From: a virus
Virus record (IMG/VR): IMGVR_UViG_3300020578_000369
Span: 1 to 26,634 of that record
Strand: one strand, 5' to 3'
Length of the DNA stretch: 26,634 nucleotides
Position 1 is the first letter of the stretch. Each line of letters starts with the position of its first letter. The translations under genes and the position numbers were made by a program. The notes beneath the pieces were generated by a model, which saw nothing but the letters and a program-made list of their open reading frames with translations, was not told the origin of the DNA and ran no database searches. This document shows, in pieces, positions 4,606 through 25,951 of the stretch.

Positions 4606-5652
4606 ATGCCATCCACGTACAGTAATATAAAGATCCAACTCATGGCGACCGGGGAAAATACCGGTACATGGGGTAACGTAACCAACGACAACCTTGGGGC
4701 TGCAATTGAGCAAGCCATTGTAGAAACGGCTACCGTTACTTTTGCCAGCGCCAATCAAACTCTAACCCTGACGGATACAAACGCCAGACAAGATGCTCGG
4801 GCGTTGCGTTTAAACCTCACCGGTACGACGGGTGGTGCAAGGGATCTAATCGTCCCAGCCATCCAAAAGCCTTACATCGTCAATAACGGCACGGCTGACA
4901 CCATCACGGTGAAAGTCTCCGGTCAGACAGGTGTAGCGGTCCCAGCGGCTCGGTCTATGCTGCTCTACAACAATGGCACAGATGTTGTGAACGCCTTAAC
5001 ACACACTCCTGTTTCTTCTGGCGGTACTGGAACAAACACACTAACTGCTGAAGCGGTTTTAATTGGTAACACAACGAGTAACGTCAAGTTCGTATCTCCC
5101 GGTACTTCTGGAAACGTACTGACATCTAATGGCTCTGCTTGGTCTTCTGCCGCAGCAGAATCTTTCCCTGCTGGTACGGTTATGTTGTTTGCCCAGACTA
5201 ATGCGCCCACTGGCTTTACAAAAGATACTTCTAATTTCAACAACTCTGCTCTTCGGGTAGTCACTGGATCGGCTTCATCTGGTGGTTCGGTTGACTTTAC
5301 AACTGCGTTTGCCTCGCAAACCCCAAGTGGTTCGGTGTCAATTAGTAGTATTTCAGGTTCGGCAGGCGCCACAACACTATCAACACCGCAGATTCCAAGT
5401 CATACACATAATATAAATAGGGGAAATAATTTCCCTCAAGGGTCTGGTAACACAACCGGAGACTCTCAATATCTGGGTTCACCTTTTACTACCATCACAA
5501 GTCCGGGCACCGGTGCAGGTATTGTAAATACGGGTGGTGGAAGTTCACATACCCACCCATTCTCGTTTTCAAGCGGCTCAGGATCATTTAGTGGTAACGC
5601 TATTAACTTGGCTGTTAAGTATGTTGACGTTATTCGGGCCACCAAAAACTAA
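4606..5652 (+). CDS. Tail fibre protein with collar-type C-terminal domain
   Basis: The 348-residue protein has an N-terminal segment NIKIQLMATGENTGTWGNV (7-25) typical of phage fibres that begin with a virion-anchoring region. A Thr/Gly-rich shaft follows, then a collar-like part from about residue 187 (PAGTVMLFAQTNAPTGFTK). Two HTH motifs (H266-T-H268 and H315-T-H317) lie in the C-terminal third, and the protein ends NLAVKYVDVIRATKN. Paired HxH motifs bind metal in some fibre tips such as T4 gp37. The ribosome-binding site AAAGGAG (4594-4600) with 5-nt spacer is strong. It probably contacts the host receptor. The distal tip may be host-range determining, which is inference. Confidence 0.75.
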   Translation: MPSTYSNIKIQLMATGENTGTWGNVTNDNLGAAIEQAIVETATVTFASANQTLTLTDTNARQDARALRLNLTGTTGGARDLIVPAIQKPYIVNNGTADTITVKVSGQTGVAVPAARSMLLYNNGTDVVNALTHTPVSSGGTGTNTLTAEAVLIGNTTSNVKFVSPGTSGNVLTSNGSAWSSAAAESFPAGTVMLFAQTNAPTGFTKDTSNFNNSALRVVTGSASSGGSVDFTTAFASQTPSGSVSISSISGSAGATTLSTPQIPSHTHNINRGNNFPQGSGNTTGDSQYLGSPFTTITSPGTGAGIVNTGGGSSHTHPFSFSSGSGSFSGNAINLAVKYVDVIRATKN

Positions 5653-5654
5653 TC

Positions 5655-6011
5655 ATGCAACTTAAAAACGGAACCTTCTGTCCGCTGATAAAAAAAGACT
5701 GTGTTGGTCTGACTTGCGCTTGGTTTACTCGGGTGCAAGGTGTAGATATGAATACCGGTAATCAGGTCGATGAGTATCAGTGTGCGATTGCTTGGATGCC
5801 AATGCTTTTAATTGAAAATTCAGGGCAACAAAGACAAACCGGTGCGGCGGTAGAAAGTTTTCGTAATGAGATGGTCAAATCTAATGAGACATCTCAGAAA
5901 GTTTTATTGGCGTCTTTGGGGTTTCAAAGACAACAGGATCAGACCCCTGTATTGGAAATAAGTCCTCCAAAGGCAAAAACTGTAAAACCTAGAACTGTTA
6001 GGAGTAAATGA
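5655..6011 (+). CDS. Small four-cysteine conserved phage protein
   Basis: The 118-residue protein carries four cysteines in its first 43 residues: C9, C16, C21 and C43, separated by 6, 4 and 21 residues. This is not a classical CxxC ribbon but could bind zinc or an iron-sulphur cluster. The segment VDEYQCAIAWMPMLLIEN is followed by a helical AAVESFRNEMVKSNETS, and the tail is Lys/Pro rich. Similar proteins sit after fibre genes in environmental phages to my recollection, with no known role. Only 2 nt separate it from the fibre stop and no good ribosome-binding site is seen, so coupling is likely. Its TGA overlaps the next ATG. Confidence 0.7.
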   Translation: MQLKNGTFCPLIKKDCVGLTCAWFTRVQGVDMNTGNQVDEYQCAIAWMPMLLIENSGQQRQTGAAVESFRNEMVKSNETSQKVLLASLGFQRQQDQTPVLEISPPKAKTVKPRTVRSK

Positions 6012-6301
6012 TGCGTATTACAATTGTTGGTGTTGATAACGCCGTTGGCGTAGACGGAAACTTTCGTGGCGACCTTGATTTATCTCAGTGTGGCCTTCCT
6101 GCAAATTTTTGGGCGTTTCAGTGGAATCAAGAAAGCAATAACACCGGGGAGATAGAATACAACTCGCCCATAATTCAAAACGACCCTGTAACAGAAATAC
6201 CTGCTTGGGCTACTGCATGTATCGCTGTTTGGCAAGCCAAGTTAGATCAAGAAGCCGCAGAAGCAGAAGCCGCACGACTTGCGGCACAACAAGGAGCGTA
6301 G
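6008..6301 (+). CDS. Small fibre-linked protein (assembly or accessory, tentative)
   Basis: The 97-residue protein has an N-terminal beta part with VDGNFRGDLDLSQCGLPANF, a WAFQWN strand, and an Ala/Glu-rich C-terminal helix after IPAWATACIAVWQAKLDQ. Short proteins with a VDG..DLS..P...WAVQW pattern and a trailing helix are common beside phage fibre genes and are sometimes called fibre-assembly proteins. ATG codons at 6008 and 6011 both follow GGAG (6001-6004); the first overlaps the upstream TGA and the second differs by one residue. The fibre-assembly role is a guess from location. Confidence 0.6.
   Translation: MMRITIVGVDNAVGVDGNFRGDLDLSQCGLPANFWAFQWNQESNNTGEIEYNSPIIQNDPVTEIPAWATACIAVWQAKLDQEAAEAEAARLAAQQGA
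6291..6296 (+). promoter_or_regulatory. Ribosome-binding site fixing the cupin start
   Basis: AAGGAG lies 6 nt before ATG 6303. It favours this start over an in-frame ATG at 6279, which sits inside the upstream gene, has no comparable site, and would add eight residues not expected in a cupin. Confidence 0.7.
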
Positions 6302-6302
6302 T

Positions 6303-6662
6303 ATGGCAAACCCAGAAGTTAAACTTGGGTGTGTGGCTAACTTGTTTAGCCGTATGATGCATTTTAAAAATGTTGGTGATATGGAGCATGGTCACACCCA
6401 TCAGTTTGACCACTTAACACTTTTGGCTTCTGGAAGGCTTCAAGTCACTGTTGATGGTCATGTGTCGGAATTTGAAGCCCCACATATGATTTATATTAAA
6501 AAAGATAAAATGCATGAACTTATAGCATTAGAACCAAACACAGTTGCATATTGTATTCACGCCATTCGCATTGGTGAAAGTGTAGATGATATTGTTGACC
6601 CGTCGATGGTTCCTGAAGGTGTTGAAATACCGCACGACTCACTACTATGCAATTTCAAATAA
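6303..6662 (+). CDS. Cupin-fold protein
   Basis: The 119-residue protein matches a single small cupin barrel. Motif 1 is HGHTHQFDHLTLLASGRLQV (29-48), with possible metal ligands H31, H33 and H37. Motif 2 is around P60-H61 to H71 (APHMIYIKKDKMHEL). Cupins of this size bind Fe, Mn or Ni and act as dioxygenases, isomerases or metabolite sensors, but the substrate cannot be read from the sequence. The ATG at 6303 is chosen because of AAGGAG at 6291-6296. The end overlaps the next gene by 16 nt, tying it to three following Fe(II)/2-oxoglutarate dioxygenases. Local base composition is AT-rich (14 G/C in the 60 nt at 6481-6540). Confidence 0.75.
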   Translation: MANPEVKLGCVANLFSRMMHFKNVGDMEHGHTHQFDHLTLLASGRLQVTVDGHVSEFEAPHMIYIKKDKMHELIALEPNTVAYCIHAIRIGESVDDIVDPSMVPEGVEIPHDSLLCNFK

Positions 6663-7231
6663 TTCAAAATAATTATCTACATGTTCCGGGTTTTATAACC
6701 TCACAACAAGTCTTAGATTTAGCAAAAGAGTTTAAAGAGTATTGCGCTAAGTTTAATCTTCAAGGAGATCCGCAAGCGCCAAACTCCCATTCAATGTATG
6801 ACTTTATGCCGTTTGTAAGGCTTCTTGTCGAGAAAGTGCCTGAAGTTTCAGACTTGTTGGGTGAAAAAGTGTTACCAACCTACACTTACGCTAGAGTGTA
6901 CAAAGAAGGTTCAGAACTACTTAGGCATCGAGACAGACCGGCTTGTGAAATTAGTCTCACGCTTAATCTTTCAAAAGATAAAGATTGGCCTATTTATTTT
7001 CAACGGCCTGATGGGTCTGAAACACCAGTTGAACTAGAACCCGGAGACGCAGTGATGTACTTGGGGTGTCAGGCAGATCATTGGCGTAACAAGTTTGAAG
7101 GACAGGAATGTGTTCAGTTGTTTATGCACTATGTTCGTTCTTACGGAACCAAGTCTTGGGCATATTTTGACAAACGACAACAACAAGAACCGACTCCGCC
7201 AGTTGCTGGGATTCCAAAGGCTATTCTATGA
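6647..7231 (+). CDS. 2-oxoglutarate/Fe(II) dioxygenase 1
   Basis: The 194-residue protein has the double-stranded beta-helix pattern of the non-haem Fe(II)/2OG oxygenases. The HxD pair is H94-R-D96, followed by strand EISLTLNLS. The distal histidine is probably H145 in GDAVMYLGCQADHWR, about 50 residues on. The 2OG-binding Arg/Lys is less clear than in the two following genes; R147 or K149 are candidates, and CVQLFMHYVR forms the last strand. The reaction would be oxidation or hydroxylation of an unknown substrate with decarboxylation of 2OG to succinate. The ATG lies inside the cupin gene (16-nt overlap) and its TGA overlaps the next ATG. The sequence is AT-rich relative to the virion genes. 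Confidence 0.8.
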   Translation: MQFQIIQNNYLHVPGFITSQQVLDLAKEFKEYCAKFNLQGDPQAPNSHSMYDFMPFVRLLVEKVPEVSDLLGEKVLPTYTYARVYKEGSELLRHRDRPACEISLTLNLSKDKDWPIYFQRPDGSETPVELEPGDAVMYLGCQADHWRNKFEGQECVQLFMHYVRSYGTKSWAYFDKRQQQEPTPPVAGIPKAIL

Positions 7232-7707
7232 GGCTTTCTATTTCAAGAATAATTAAACAATGGAAATATGCCCCAATGGTAAATCCATCTTTTAATTTTC
7301 AATTGAATGCTGCGGGAAACGGGCGGCGTTTTTCAACACAGGATATTGCACCTTATTGGGAAGAGGCGTTTAAAGAATTTGGGTTAAAGCCGGTTGAAGT
7401 AGAGCCTATATTTAAAAATTTCACTGGTAATCATTACCAAGATGGGGCGTTTGTTCATCCACATACAGACCCAGCACCGGACGGATTTGTACATACTAGG
7501 TGTAACTTGATGTTAAAAAAACCTAAAGAAGGCGGTAACCCTGTCCTTGATGGGGAAGAGATTAATGTCGAAGAAGGTGATTTGTGGTTGTGCCTTGCCA
7601 GTATAGAAACACACTCATCTACGCCAATTAAAGGCGGGGAAAGGTTAATCTTTTCTTTTGGGGGGCTTGTCCCCGTCAAACAAATTGAAGCAATTGTAGA
7701 AAGATGA
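7228..7707 (+). CDS. 2-oxoglutarate/Fe(II) dioxygenase 2
   Basis: The 159-residue protein is a compact Fe(II)/2OG oxygenase. The HxD ligands are H79-T-D81 in GAFVHPHTDPAPDG, the distal ligand is H129 in SIETHSSTP, and R139, ten residues later in GGERLIFSFGG, is placed to bind the 2OG carboxylate. All core residues are present in the expected order. It is only distantly similar to its neighbours, so the three enzymes are not recent duplicates. The ATGA overlap at 7228-7231 and again at 7704-7707 shows strict coupling. The substrate is unknown; candidates are a virion or host protein side chain, a nucleobase or a small metabolite. Confidence 0.85.
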   Translation: MRLSISRIIKQWKYAPMVNPSFNFQLNAAGNGRRFSTQDIAPYWEEAFKEFGLKPVEVEPIFKNFTGNHYQDGAFVHPHTDPAPDGFVHTRCNLMLKKPKEGGNPVLDGEEINVEEGDLWLCLASIETHSSTPIKGGERLIFSFGGLVPVKQIEAIVER

Positions 7708-8264
7708 AAAATATTAACGACTATATTGTTGTATTTGAAGACGTAATGACCCATGCTCTTTGCGATGCTATTTTAGAAGAATTTAGTGATGAAGAGGAAT
7801 GGCAAAAAACTGTTGTTGGTGATGGGCGTGTTAACGATAAGATAAGAACCGCAGAAACAGTTGTTATTTCTTATCCACATGTTATAGAAAAAAACCTTAA
7901 AGTTAGACAAAAGTTAGATAAATATATTTATACCTCTGCTGGTTTAGCAATAAAAAAGTATAACGAAAAGTTTAACGAAGCACGTATAGAAGAAGATTCT
8001 GGCTATGAATTGTTAAGGTATAAAGAAGATCAATTTTATACCCAACATACAGATTCATTTAAAGCAAGGCCCCGTGCAGTTTCGTGTTCCTTTGGATTGA
8101 ATGATGACTACGAGGGTGGTGAGTTTGCGTTCTTTAACAGAGAGATAAAGATCAAGGTTCCAAAAGGTGCTGCAGTGATGTTCCCTTCAAACTTTATGTA
8201 CCCCCATGAGATCTTGCCTGTTATCAAAGGAACCCGGTATTCTGTTATCACTTGGTTTATTTAA
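7704..8264 (+). CDS. 2-oxoglutarate/Fe(II) dioxygenase 3 (prolyl-hydroxylase-like)
   Basis: The 186-residue protein matches the prolyl-4-hydroxylase/PKHD-type group best. The conserved block begins LLRYKEDQFYTQHTD, with Fe ligands H115-T-D117. Next come GLNDDYEGGEFAFF and then GAAVMFPSNFMYPHEIL, with distal ligand H168 and 2OG-binding R178 in KGTRYSVITWF. The N-terminal part (NINDYIVVFEDVMTHALCD) is a helical cap typical of the family. All catalytic residues are intact. The enzyme would hydroxylate an amino-acid side chain or small molecule. The 5' half is AT-rich (14 of 60 G/C at 7861-7920) and the 3' end nearer the operon average. Confidence 0.88.
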   Translation: MKNINDYIVVFEDVMTHALCDAILEEFSDEEEWQKTVVGDGRVNDKIRTAETVVISYPHVIEKNLKVRQKLDKYIYTSAGLAIKKYNEKFNEARIEEDSGYELLRYKEDQFYTQHTDSFKARPRAVSCSFGLNDDYEGGEFAFFNREIKIKVPKGAAVMFPSNFMYPHEILPVIKGTRYSVITWFI

Positions 8265-8491: not shown

Positions 8492-8887
8492 ATGATTGTC
8501 AACCCATTAGCAATCGTTGAGATTGGTGGAAGACTTTTAGACAAGATCATCCCAGATAAAGACGCACGGGATAGAGCCAAGGCCGAACTGATAAAAGCCT
8601 CGCAGGATCAGGACTTCCAGCGGGACATGGCCCAGATCGAGTTAAATAAAGAAGAGGCCAAGATGGATCTCTTCCGAGGAGGCTGGCGACCAGCCGTGGG
8701 GTGGACATGCGGGGTTGCGTTTGCTCTTCACTTTGTGTTGTTCCCACTTCTCAACTTCTTCCTAGCCGGTGCGGGGCAAGAGCAAATTGTTGTCGCCTTC
8801 GACATGGACACGCTGATGACGGTGTTGCTCGGTCTTCTGGGTCTTGGTGGTCTGCGTACAGCAGAGAAGTGGAAAGGGATTAAGTAA
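8492..8887 (+). CDS. Holin, gene-transfer-agent 3-TM type
   Basis: The 131-residue protein matches the 3-TM holin family named for gene-transfer-agent release. An N-terminal hydrophobic segment (residues 1-20) is followed by a charged helix rich in Asp/Lys/Glu. The signature FRGGWRPAVGWTCGVAFALH opens a strongly hydrophobic stretch to about 92, and MDTLMTVLLGLLGLGGLRTA (106-124) ends in the conserved TAEKWKG. It should insert in the inner membrane and let the endolysin through at lysis. GGGGAG at 8481-8486 is the ribosome-binding site. It directly precedes the peptidase (shared TAATG), the usual lysis pairing. Confidence 0.88.
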   Translation: MIVNPLAIVEIGGRLLDKIIPDKDARDRAKAELIKASQDQDFQRDMAQIELNKEEAKMDLFRGGWRPAVGWTCGVAFALHFVLFPLLNFFLAGAGQEQIVVAFDMDTLMTVLLGLLGLGGLRTAEKWKGIK

Positions 8888-9255
8888 TGGATTGGAGCCG
8901 TTATCCAAACTTCAAGGAGTCTGAGTTTGCCTGTAGTCACTGTGGCAAAACCGAGATGGATGCAGACTTCATGTTTCGGCTTCAACTTCTTCGTGCTCGG
9001 TATAACAAACCCCTCACCATCTCATCTGGCTATCGATGTCCACAACATCCAATAGAGGTTAAAAAAGCCTCTTCAGGAGCGCATACTACGGGTAAGGCTG
9101 CGGATATTGCGGTGCAGGGAGCCGAGGCTCATAAGATTTTGATGCTTGCATTAGATATGAACTTCAAAGGAATCGGGGTTCAACAAAAAGGCACTGGGCG
9201 GTTCATCCACCTAGACGACTGGGACAATAACAGACCAACGGTCTGGAGTTACTAA
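8887..9255 (+). CDS. Endolysin, peptidase M15 (D-Ala carboxypeptidase-like)
   Basis: The 122-residue protein is a compact M15-family peptidase. Conserved segments run in order: NFKESEFACSHCG with C16 and C19, a helix before PLTISSGYRCP (42-52), then GAHTTGKAADI with zinc ligands H66 and D73, and RFIHLDD with H108 and D110. It would cleave stem peptides in peptidoglycan. No signal peptide is present, so release depends on the upstream holin. Length is normal for stand-alone phage versions. The ATG overlaps the holin stop by one base. The CxxC is normal for this subfamily and not a special feature. Confidence 0.9.
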   Translation: MDWSRYPNFKESEFACSHCGKTEMDADFMFRLQLLRARYNKPLTISSGYRCPQHPIEVKKASSGAHTTGKAADIAVQGAEAHKILMLALDMNFKGIGVQQKGTGRFIHLDDWDNNRPTVWSY

Positions 9256-19300: not shown

Positions 19301-22300
19301 AAGACTTGCGTCAAGCGGTGCGGGATAGTTATGACGATGCGTCTAACACCGTAGATTTTGCTTATCTTGCACGTGCCTATGACCTCAAGACAGACAAGTT
19401 AGAAGAGGCATACAACTTAGAACTTGATCGCCTGCGGGGGGTGGACGTTGAGACCAAACGGGTAAAAGAGGAAGAAGCCCGTATTGAAGAGGCTCGACGT
19501 GAGAAGGCACTCAAGGATAAAGAACAGGCTGAAGCGAGTGCTAAAGAAGAACAACTTCGTACAAAGACCCTGCGTGAAATAAAAGGTATGGAGGCCCAGC
19601 CTCTTGCAGAACTTATTCGCAACGTAGAGAAGTTAGAGGGCACCGACTTCCAGCCTGTAATGCGTAACATTGCACGCACCGGGAAGGTTGCCGAGAACCT
19701 CCAGACTAAGATCGACCTGCCGTTTGATGAGGGTAAACCCGAATCTCGCAAACTTACAGCCAAAGAACTTGAAGAGAGCGAAGGCAAACTTACCAAACGA
19801 ATCTCTCGTACGCCTAAGGTCAACAAGTGGGTTCCGTTTGATACTGCCTATCAGTACGCCATTCTGCGTAGCGGTGACAACAAGTTCGCCATTATCGCCC
19901 CGGCTCGGTACAACGTGCGTGACCTGCTGGGTAGTTTCAAGGTTCAGTACCCTGACTCAGTCGTCGATGAATTAGGTTCTGGCACCCTAGCCAACGTCAA
20001 GTACTTGTCGTTTACGGCATCTAATGTTCCCGAGGGCACACGGCCCATGGCAGAGCCGGGAGTTGTCACTCCTCAGGCAGGTGCTCAACAACGACTTGCT
20101 GAACAACAGGCTGCTAAGAAGATCGCTGCTGTTACAGAGACACTTACTAATAGTACTTACGAGAATCTCAAGAACGGCAAGGCGGTTAAAGAGGCTGTTG
20201 ATAAACACGGGATGGATGCAACCTTCCGTGCCTTGGCTGACCTGCGTGCCCAGCGTGCTGACATGCGGGAGAAAACCGGCAACTTTGCCATGGACGACCG
20301 GGTGCTCAACGACGCTCTCGACTACCTAAACAAGACTTACGGAGTGCAGGTTTATTTTTCAACTAGGGAAGTTCAGGCTGAGGAAGAGCCAAATGTTGGA
20401 TACGCTAACGAACTTTTAAATAAAACATCTAAGGGAGGTTATAACGTAACCGAGTTACTTAAAACTATTTCAAAACATGAACGTAACTCTGAAACGGGGC
20501 GTCTTGCTAGGGTGCTTTTAACTAATGCAAACAAATTTAAGTTAGATGACATACCGGTTGTATACAATCCTTTAGATAGCGGTAGAAGTTACTATGCCGG
20601 TTTTTATGATCAGTCTAACAATAGATTTGCAACTATATCTATTGGAAAAGCGCATTTATATATGCCTGATGTTGGGCTTCACGAAATTGTCCATGCCTTA
20701 TCAGTCGAACAAATGCGTAAGGTATCCGATCCCACTTATAAGCGAACTGGGGATAGTTGGGAACAGGCTGCGGATGGGCTTAACAATCTACATAGTTATA
20801 TGGAGTTTTTTGTTGCTGATGCTTCAACAAATGAAAGCCTTAGAAAAAGTACTTCTTTGACGGAAAATGATATTAAAAAATTAAGAAGTCACTATGGTAT
20901 GACTAATTCTTTTGAGTTTGTATCAGAAGCCATATCAGATGAAGAATTTAAAACTTTATTGAAAAAAATTCCATCAAAAACATTTATTAATTTTTTAACT
21001 TACACAATTGGAAAAGGCCCAGTTGAGTTTGAAGAATTTAGAAATAAAACCAGAAAAGAAGTCAACGATAGATTAAATTATGTAGCCGAAGACATTTTTA
21101 GTTCTGTTCAAGAACGAGCGTTAGCCAAACGAATCATTAAAGAATGGTTTGATCAACCAGAAGGTGGTGGAAAACGTTTGCTATCAATTGGTCAAAAATA
21201 TGAAGATTCTGGAATTAAAAATGCTTACGAAATTGCTGAAATTCTTAAACGCAGTATAGACAATTGGTTTTATGGTAGAAAAAGTATTACTCAAAATAAA
21301 GACGTAGTTTCTAAACAACTTAGTATATTTCAAAGGCTTGTAAGAGGTACTAAAAATGCTTTTGAAATGTTTACCAAATTGCTTCGTCAAGCCCTTGGAC
21401 TCCCAAGTTCTTCGCAAAGTGTATTTGATATTGTTATTAACCAATTTGGTACGTTAATTGAAGAGACCCCAACATCAGCAGTTACTAGAGGTAGTCCAAG
21501 AAACTTAATAGTTACTCAAAAGGCCACTACACCAAAAAAGTACGGTCGGGACCCCCTGCCTGATGATGTCATCAAGTTGCTCGACAGCATCAAAAACAAC
21601 CCTGCACTCGATGTTCCTGTAATTAAGAGTGGTGCAGACGCTGCCCTTGCAGTCAAGACAGGGGCACTCCCGTTCCTAGCAATGAACCAGATCCGTGACA
21701 TTTACGGTTCTGACCCTCGCCTTGCAGAACTAAAAGACTACTACACGGCTACCCAAAAGATGGGCGGCTACCGCAACAAATTGCGTAAAGAGTTTGGTGA
21801 CGTTCTTAACGATTTCCATAAAGTCATCCGTGACCACAGAGGTCTTAAAGACAAGATTTACGAAGTGATTAACGAGGGTTCTCGCCTAGAAGTTGATGTG
21901 CTTAAGCCAAGCAAGGACTACACAGACCCTGCGGCTAAAGCCGATCACAAGCGCCTACAGGACATCTACAACACATTCCCGCAAGACGTTAAGAACTTCT
22001 ATCAAAAGTACCGCAAGCATAACGACTACATGCTCGACCAGATCAAGGAGTCAATGATCGCTCGGGCTACAAGTTATGTGACTGACCCTGCATCTAAGGC
22101 TGAGATTCGTGCCTTGATCAACAAAAAGATTGACTCGTTCAAGGACAAGGGACCGTATGCACCCCTGATGTTCTTCGGTAACAACTGGGTTGTGGCTGGC
22201 AAAGACGACAAAGCCACCCCGTTCTCGTTTGAGACTAAAGCCCAAGCCGATTCGTTTGCTAAAGGTATGAAGGCTCAGGGGTATGAGGTCAAACAATTTG

Positions 22301-24542: not shown

Positions 24543-25322
24543 TTATTTGAGGTTGCCACCCGACTTGATGAGATCCCCACTGTAAACATACGTCCCAACA
24601 TGACTTAGTTTGACAAACGGGTTGGCGTAAATCTTCCCGCCGTGGTTCTTCCACAGATCACAGAAGTGGTAGTCTTCGGACAGCAAAGCACCCGTACTAT
24701 CAATACTTGTTGCAAAGAACTCATGGGTCAGGGGCTTTAAGTATTCACCGTCCTTGTCCTTGACTGTAGAGGTGCGGTAGGTAGGCACATGGTCTTTTAG
24801 AATCTCAAACACCCGACGCTTGATAAGCATGAACCCCGTGCCACCATGACGCACTTCGATCACCCCGTCTTGGTCACTCTCGGCAACTACTTGTCCGTGG
24901 TTGAAGTTCATCACGTATGCACCAGCGTAGTCTTGGAGGTTCTCTTGTCCTTCTTTAGCCGCTTGGTTTACACGATCCCAATCAATCTCTTTCTTGGGGT
25001 AAATGCCGCACACAACGTCTTTGTCAGCCGCCATCAGAGACGCTACATCTTGCCCACTAAACTGAATGTCGGCATCGATGAACATCAGGTAGTCTAAGCC
25101 CTTCTCTAGGAACAATCTAGCCAACTCGTTTCTAGCCCGTGTGATAAGGCTTTCGTTGATGAGGTATCCGTAGTAGAGCGGGACACGCACTTCCTGCATC
25201 CTCTTGGACAATGACAAGATGCCGTTTAGGTAATGACCCGTACACATCCCACCATACATCGGGGTTGCCACCATTATCGTAGGGCGTTTCTGTTCTTCTG
25301 CAACTTCTTTTAGATCACTCAT
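24543..25322 (-). CDS. Glycosyltransferase, GT-A-like
   Basis: The 259-residue protein begins after a short charged leader with TIMVATPMYGGMCTGHYLNG (15-34), the usual first nucleotide-binding strand of a GT-A fold. The DxD-type metal site is D83-A-D85 in LDYLMFIDADIQFSG. HGGTGFMLIKRRVFEIL (159-175) and LSEDYHFCDLWKNHGGKIY (214-232, with E216-D217 as a possible catalytic base region) complete the fold. It would transfer a sugar from a nucleotide-sugar; donor and acceptor are unknown. AAGGA at 25329-25333 (read on -) lies 6 nt before the ATG, within the end of the methyltransferase gene. There is no signal peptide or membrane segment. Confidence 0.85.
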   Translation of the reverse strand: MSDLKEVAEEQKRPTIMVATPMYGGMCTGHYLNGILSLSKRMQEVRVPLYYGYLINESLITRARNELARLFLEKGLDYLMFIDADIQFSGQDVASLMAADKDVVCGIYPKKEIDWDRVNQAAKEGQENLQDYAGAYVMNFNHGQVVAESDQDGVIEVRHGGTGFMLIKRRVFEILKDHVPTYRTSTVKDKDGEYLKPLTHEFFATSIDSTGALLSEDYHFCDLWKNHGGKIYANPFVKLSHVGTYVYSGDLIKSGGNLK

Positions 25323-25324
25323 TT

Positions 25325-25951
25325 TTAGTCCTTCATTTTCTTAACAGCAAGTTGATAGCCTACATACACGACTTTTAGTCTGTCGTGATAGATGTTAGTG
25401 AACATGTCGATAGCAATCTTGGGTTTGTGCAGTACGGGATAGTCTATACCCCACGAGTAATCATCAAACACCATTACGCCACCGACCTTGAGCACCTGCC
25501 AAGCCATGCAGGCATCAGCGAGTACGTCCGGTGCTTGATGTGACCCGTCAATATAAATCAGATCCATCATCTCTATGGGTGATGGCGTGTTCCAAATAAT
25601 ATGTGCCAACCCTTTGCTAGATGTTTGTTTATAGACGTTAATTTTTTTACTTAAGTCCTTAGCCTGCACCTTACGCATGTTCTCAAGAAACCTTTGCTTC
25701 ACCGCATACATATCCTCGACTGTGTGTTCTTCGCCACCCTTCCACGTGTCGATACAGTTGATGATGCCACCTGACTCAAGACCGTTCTCCACTAGCCACA
25801 CAGTACTGCGTCCCTCAAAGCAACCGATCTCAAGAAAGCGTCTCTTGGCTGGCAGCGTTTTAAATATTTCTCTAAAGAGCGGAGGCCCCCACTTCCACCA
25901 GTCGTGGGTAAACTCGTAGGTCTCGCTCGGGTTGATGTCCTCGGCGTTCAT
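25325..25951 (-). CDS. Class I SAM-dependent methyltransferase
   Basis: The 208-residue protein shows the Rossmann methyltransferase motifs in order. Motif I is FLEIGCFEGRSTVWL (39-53), the second strand is INCIDTWKGG (64-73), then MDLIYIDGSHQAPDV (129-143) and GGVMVFDDYSWG (157-168). The IDGSH and FDDY pair is typical of the Methyltransf_24 / TylF-CmcI-like group that methylates sugars, cephalosporins or other small molecules. It lacks the DNA-methyltransferase catalytic motifs (DPPY or PCQ). AGGAGA at 25961-25966 is a reasonable ribosome-binding site. It is 2 nt from the glycosyltransferase gene, so the pair may modify the same glycan. The substrate is inferred only. Confidence 0.85.
   Translation of the reverse strand: MNAEDINPSETYEFTHDWWKWGPPLFREIFKTLPAKRRFLEIGCFEGRSTVWLVENGLESGGIINCIDTWKGGEEHTVEDMYAVKQRFLENMRKVQAKDLSKKINVYKQTSSKGLAHIIWNTPSPIEMMDLIYIDGSHQAPDVLADACMAWQVLKVGGVMVFDDYSWGIDYPVLHKPKIAIDMFTNIYHDRLKVVYVGYQLAVKKMKD

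Follow-up and report, generated by a model that had tools for sequence, protein, structure and literature searches.

Four overlapping genes of a freshwater/marine phage are predicted to encode a cupin (CUP) and three Fe(II)/2-oxoglutarate (2OG) oxygenases (OX1, OX2 and OX3), and this cassette raises the question of what such a set of enzymes would modify beside a tail fibre. The window analyzed here is the whole stretch of 26,634 nucleotides of the IMG/VR record IMGVR_UViG_3300020578_000369. The window had no DNA similarity to named phages, and a scan of prokaryote genomes for the host returned matches in MAG/SAG contigs only, several of them evidently viral.

The open reading frames of CUP, OX1, OX2 and OX3 overlap by 16, 4 and 4 nt (Table 1), in agreement with the earlier note, and judged from their sequences the four genes form one translational unit of intact metal enzymes kept beside the fibre genes. 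The placement of the cassette between tail-fibre and lysis genes was borne out as well, with the fibre upstream and the holin and M15 endolysin downstream. The G/C counts given earlier for three segments of 60 nt were exact, with 14 of 60 at 6481-6540, 14 of 60 at 7861-7920, and 35 of 60 at 8581-8640. The GC content of the cassette was 39.0% compared to 47.7% in the window, its GC3 was 29-32%, and only 0.4% of stretches of cassette size were as low in GC. Since the cassettes of eight relatives were also ~8-15 points below their surroundings, AT-richness belongs to the module and not to this genome. A second AT-rich stretch with 33.9% GC was seen at 20500-21500 inside a gene encoding 2637 aa and is possibly a recombined segment. 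Close to the end of the window, the minus strand carries a glycosyltransferase-like gene (weak PHROG match) and a methyltransferase-like gene at 24543-25951.

Table 1. Coordinates of the cassette and of the neighbouring fibre and lysis genes in the window
Feature	Position	Strand	Description
Fibre block	4606-6301		upstream of the cassette
Tail fibre	4606..5652	+	collar-type C-terminal tip; proposed substrate
Hypervariable fibre loop with prolines	5410..5547	+	between two HxH motifs
Pro codon after second HxH (HTHP)	5557..5559	+	candidate target residue
gp5655	5655..6011	+	conserved fibre-linked protein, four invariant Cys
gp6008	6008..6301	+	small fibre-linked protein; follows gp5655 in most loci
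CUP	6303..6662	+	119 aa; start ATG 6303, AAGGAG upstream
OX1	6647..7231	+	194 aa; Fe(II)/2OG oxygenase, predicted P4H fold; core member
OX2	7228..7707	+	159 aa; predicted small Fe(II)/2OG oxygenase, HxD..H..R; optional
OX3	7704..8264	+	186 aa; P4H/PHD2-type Fe(II)/2OG oxygenase; core partner of OX1
Holin	8492-8887		downstream of the cassette
M15 endolysin	8887-9255		after the holin

In profile searches, the C-terminal part of the fibre matched the tail-fibre structures 9qgo (4e-9) and 9nxk (2e-5), and its two HxH motifs enclose a hypervariable loop. The following protein, gp5655, had no family match and always occurred beside a collar-type fibre, and its residues C9, C16, C21, and C43 were invariant in 41 relatives. 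No family match was obtained for gp6008 in Pfam-type and PHROG searches; it is possibly an assembly partner of the fibre.

Predicted folds and metal sites

OX3 matched PF13640 at 5e-17, above the cut-off, and phrog_61 at 2e-38, and its profile matched solved structures of prolyl-4-hydroxylase (P4H), PHD2, PiuC, and LH3. H115, D117, H168, and R178 were invariant in 48 of 48 relatives, and with the Arg at +10 OX3 has the residue set of the 2OG oxygenase superfamily. This triad and Arg are shared with PHD2/EGLN, collagen P4H, and the viral P4H of PBCV-1 (5c5t), all matched by profile, whereas OX3 is encoded in a tailed-phage genome next to the gene of a fibre and its substrate is a proposal. Within phrog_61, a broad family of 2OG-Fe(II) oxygenases of aquatic phages, the OX1-linked OX3 proteins are a fibre-associated subset. 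EGLN3-like folds have been described in phage oxygenases with no substrate assigned (PMC12774648).

The match of OX2 to 2OG-FeII_Oxy_3 was 0.0024, below the family cut-off. Its AlphaFold model (pLDDT 94.2) predicts a DSBH fold with HxD..H and an Arg at +10, which places OX2 in the same superfamily, and H79, D81, H129, and R139 were invariant in 12 of 12 relatives. The model matched PiuC, P4H, and human AspH, the core of AspH being the tightest with an rmsd of 1.7 A over 87 columns. Despite this AspH-like core, no link was found between OX2 and Asn or Asp in the fibre tip (n=11). CUP matched Cupin_2 at 0.0005, below the curated cut-off, and KdgF-type cupins in the PDB at 6e-5 by profile. H31, H33, and H71 were invariant in 38 of 38 relatives and H37 was found in at least 90%; the HxH and the second-motif His are those of the cupin superfamily. 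CUP is thus on sequence grounds a small single-domain KdgF-like cupin, and an optional member of the cassette.

OX1 had no Pfam match, and because neither its profile nor that of OX2 gave a meaningful match to PDB sequences, the folds of both were predicted instead. The AlphaFold model of OX1 reached a pLDDT of 90.7 and a pTM of 0.85, and its best Foldseek match was the Pseudomonas putida P4H (4iw3/4j25) with an E value of 5e-9 and a TM of 0.66, while SnoN and HygX were matched too. Its BFVD neighbours were the 'ferrochelatase' of S-SM1 and phage prolyl-hydroxylase-like proteins. The P. putida enzyme is a bacterial protein hydroxylase acting on EF-Tu that has the same fold and HxD..H facial triad as modelled for OX1 at an identity of 17-18%, but an Arg ten positions after the distal His is not obvious in OX1. 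No conserved Arg was present at +10 after H145 in the family; the invariant R83, R147, and H161 are candidate binders of the 2OG C5-carboxylate. H94, D96, and H145 were invariant in 47 of 47 relatives with identities down to 47%. The modelled double-stranded beta-helix with its HxD..H triad, together with these conserved ligands, assigns OX1 by predicted fold and metal site to the 2OG-type oxygenases.

All metal residues that had been named in the four proteins were present and conserved in alignments of relatives, and a check for ligand loss, which would have counted against the cassette, found the ligands invariant in nearly all aligned sequences. Such conservation is, in these alignments, not a matter of chance. 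The three oxygenases are indeed not near-copies, as their mutual similarity in profile comparison was weak.

Linkage to the fibre genes

Gene neighbourhoods were compiled from the closest matches to the queries (best 80 per search), which are not a random sample, and some of the 'absent' gene calls rest on incomplete contigs. Among these closest matches, 93 of 109 OX1 loci outside the window had OX3 alongside, as a fusion in 41 and as a neighbouring gene in 52. A homologue of the fibre at 4606 occurred in 82 of these 109 closest matches, and many of the others were truncated contigs or divergent loci. The OX1-OX3 pair usually followed a collar-type tail fibre and gp5655. With gp5655 as the query, all 61 non-redundant loci among the closest matches had the fibre upstream, and 39 of them carried OX1, 43 OX3, 38 both, 18 CUP, and 5 OX2.

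The fused OX1::OX3 is typical of larger phages, with separate genes in the window, and six records with lengths of 62-186 kb had no PF13640 match besides the fusion. In the cultured Synechococcus phage S-SCSM1 (NC_070962, 213332-218269), two fibre homologues come first, followed by a homologue of gp5655, one hypothetical gene, and the fused OX1::OX3. The 'short tail fiber protein' of this phage (L227:1972-3237) carries a long Arg/Pro-rich stretch with RQPR-like repeats before the HxH tip. In the pelagiphage HTVC023P, OX1 stands close to an OX3-like gene and to a fibre homologue, in a different order.

CUP was absent from many OX loci and also occurred without OX1, while OX2 was found in a minority of loci, with divergent relatives in loci without OX1 (L104, L110, and L144). 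As CUP and OX2 are each found without OX1, the functional core is formed by OX1 and OX3. The linkage on which the earlier note had staked its reading was therefore tight for OX1 and OX3, but CUP and OX2 come and go. Its suggestion of four enzymes acting in series did not survive, since only OX1 and OX3 are a tight pair (adjacent or fused), and an obligate four-enzyme series was rejected because CUP and OX2 are optional across loci.

Proline in the fibre-tip loop

The hypothesis of a fibre substrate arose from the same data that were used to test it, which applies to all of the following comparisons. Proline made up 9.95% of the tip loop in 107 loops (106 distinct) from loci with OX1 and OX3 compared to 3.6% in 33 loci without them. 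Loops without any proline were found in 0 of the 107 and in 6 of the 33, and a Pro after the second HxH (HxHP) in 102 and 4, respectively.

Because relatives are not independent, phylogenetic GLS was fitted to 194 loci with fibre and gp5655, 151 of which carried OX1 and/or OX3, with locus GC as covariate and Pagel's lambda fitted. The pure Brownian model (lambda=1) was dropped for its numerical degeneracy, and so was the HxHP fit at lambda=1, for which counts and independent pairs were used instead. Presence of OX was associated with an increase of tip proline by 3.24 points on the gp5655 tree (n=194, t=5.75, p=3.6e-8) and by 4.15 points on the fibre tree (n=194, t=7.4, p=4e-12). No OX effect was found for fibre proline outside the tip (GLS p=0.42 and 0.63) or in gp5655 (p=0.86 and 0.74). 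Out of 11 other tip residues, only Tyr (both trees) and Lys (one tree) fell below p<0.05 in GLS, with weak and negative effects. GC bias was rejected as the source of the high proline content since the GC covariate was not significant.

In phylogenetically independent pairs, tip proline was higher with OX by 12:2 (p=0.013 in a sign test) and 14:1 (p=0.001); outside the tip, fibre proline ran the opposite way. HxHP differed in 8 of 17 independent pairs, all in favour of OX (8:0). Mean tip proline was 8-9% with OX1 and OX3, 5.1% with OX3 alone without CUP, and 3.4% with neither. Among loci with OX1 and OX3, neither CUP nor OX2 was associated with tip proline. Exceptions were two loci with proline-rich loops (L260 and L261, the latter with no PF13640 match in its possibly incomplete 74-kb record) and two with OX3 only and a loop without proline (L165 and L277).

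The association of proline with OX suggests that the phage may hydroxylate the receptor-binding tip of its own fibre. The explanation narrowly favoured as a whole is a cassette that would serve as a fibre-linked protein-hydroxylation module, with OX1 and OX3 as the core pair of P4H-type Fe(II)/2OG oxygenases. Late in infection, these may hydroxylate prolines in the hypervariable receptor-binding loop of the adjacent fibre, and the Pro after the second HxH is perhaps a further target. Hydroxylation would adjust or stabilise the tip, or supply an -OH group to which more decoration could be attached, and CUP and OX2 would be optional accessories with other targets or steps. Hydroxylation of the fibre had been one of several options in the earlier note; it is now the best supported, with the tip-loop proline as candidate residue and catalysis still presumptive, and modification of the host surface or of DNA bases, also among those options, is less probable. 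The prolyl hydroxylase activity of OX1 and OX3 is putative and rests on fold similarity and on the association with fibre-loop proline. That the pair acts on the receptor-binding tip is considered marginally probable, where we infer catalysis, substrate, timing, and benefit alike. Held more tentatively, at just under even confidence, is the wider reading that tailed phages carry a dedicated prolyl-hydroxylase pair for their own fibre tip, one half of it the so-called ferrochelatase, with extra decoration by a carbamoyltransferase or other enzyme possible in some lineages.

In the search of freely available journal papers, no account of a prolyl-hydroxylated phage fibre was found, and hydroxyproline in phage fibres gave a single match, on collagen-like proteins of E. 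coli prophages. A specific virion substrate, if true, would reduce an open question to one mass-spectrometry experiment on cultured phages, and post-translational modification would join the ways in which phages shape their receptor-binding tips.

Alternative substrates and the 'ferrochelatase' label

In loci without OX1 and OX3, fatty-acid desaturases, ACP, small cupins, or other 2OG oxygenases are often found in the slot behind the fibre block. Desaturases, HTHPW cupins, or other 2OG oxygenases were seen in L271 (also with ACP), L272, L279, L282, L289, L291, and L295. A GDSL-like hydrolase and a NodU-type carbamoyltransferase are inserted between OX2 and OX3 in two relatives (L009:6130-7729 and L107:4970-7132), and a B12-binding radical SAM protein lies between OX1 and OX3 in another (L153:3514-4995). 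These varied contents make the slot a hot spot for non-haem iron and modifying enzymes, and they are also compatible with small-molecule or envelope chemistry. The slot could then be an island of envelope or small-molecule enzymes whose oxygenases act on a lipid, glycan, or metabolite of the host, for instance in superinfection exclusion, with an indirect proline link. This reading draws on the slot contents of the relatives and on a predicted cyanophage capsule/secondary-metabolite cluster with carbamoyltransferase, 2OGFeDO, and cupin (PMC7824862), but is judged unlikely, as it does not predict a proline enrichment confined to the tip loop and as the folds of OX1 and OX3 are nearest to protein hydroxylases, though OX1 also has the matches noted above. 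The published cluster has enzyme classes in common with the cassette, and a carbamoyltransferase was found only in the relatives L009 and L107. In contrast to that cluster, no halogenase or HemK-like methylase was seen and the four-gene set is tied to the fibre, gp5655, and gp6008; membership was rejected as the cassette has no carbamoyltransferase, halogenase, or methylase.

The link between proline and OX is possibly indirect in another way, with host or receptor type selecting both. Proline-rich tips and OX1/OX3 would then share hosts or receptors, and the enzymes would have a host protein as their target, for example EF-Tu, the substrate of the P. putida P4H. That enzyme, including its EF-Tu complex, is the best structural match of OX1, yet the association persists in independent sister pairs and the position is locked to the fibre and not to early genes, which makes a common ecological cause somewhat less likely still.

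Relatives of OX1 also occur away from fibre genes, beside Dam, gp62, and regA in P-SSM7 (L230) and near a helicase in S-PM2 (L229), and since these stand beside replication genes, the family may have other substrates. Alteration of phage DNA bases by the oxygenases would fit such neighbours; it is nevertheless improbable for the present cassette, which lies among late structural genes, and no genes for thymidylate- or base-hypermodification turned up in the part of the window that was searched.

OX1 belongs to phrog_2954 (2e-56), which is labelled 'ferrochelatase', and phrog_3531 covers OX1 and OX3 as a single protein. The porphyrin metallation implied by the name is unsupported by fold and residues. 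No ferrochelatase Pfam match was found in any of the 47 OX1 family members, and a few of them matched 2OG families weakly. A true ferrochelatase was rejected for OX1 on these counts, and given the confident P4H-fold model with HxD..H, the name of phrog_2954 and phrog_3531 in cyanophages and pelagiphages is very probably a propagated misannotation. Auxiliary metabolic genes, comprising a real ferrochelatase and oxygenases adjusting the haem, iron, or 2OG metabolism of the host, are highly improbable against this evidence, despite the PHROG label, their publication as such (PMC9599517, PMC11561400), and a 2OG/NtcA proposal (PMC3037559).

Among the unexplained genes of aquatic phages, 2OG oxygenases and 'ferrochelatases' rank with the commonest, and the literature still calls them metabolic (PMC9599517, PMC11561400); a virion substrate, if true, would correct this propagated annotation. 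The OX1 family has been treated as a ferrochelatase auxiliary metabolic gene that is always beside a 2OG oxygenase (PMC9599517), and seasonal phages were enriched in phrog2954 and phrog61 (PMC11561400). In T4-like cyanophages, cluster T4-GC 615 is the 'ferrochetalase domain' protein of the OX1 family (PMC3037559), and the OX1 relatives of S-PM2 and P-SSM7 bear this cluster number.
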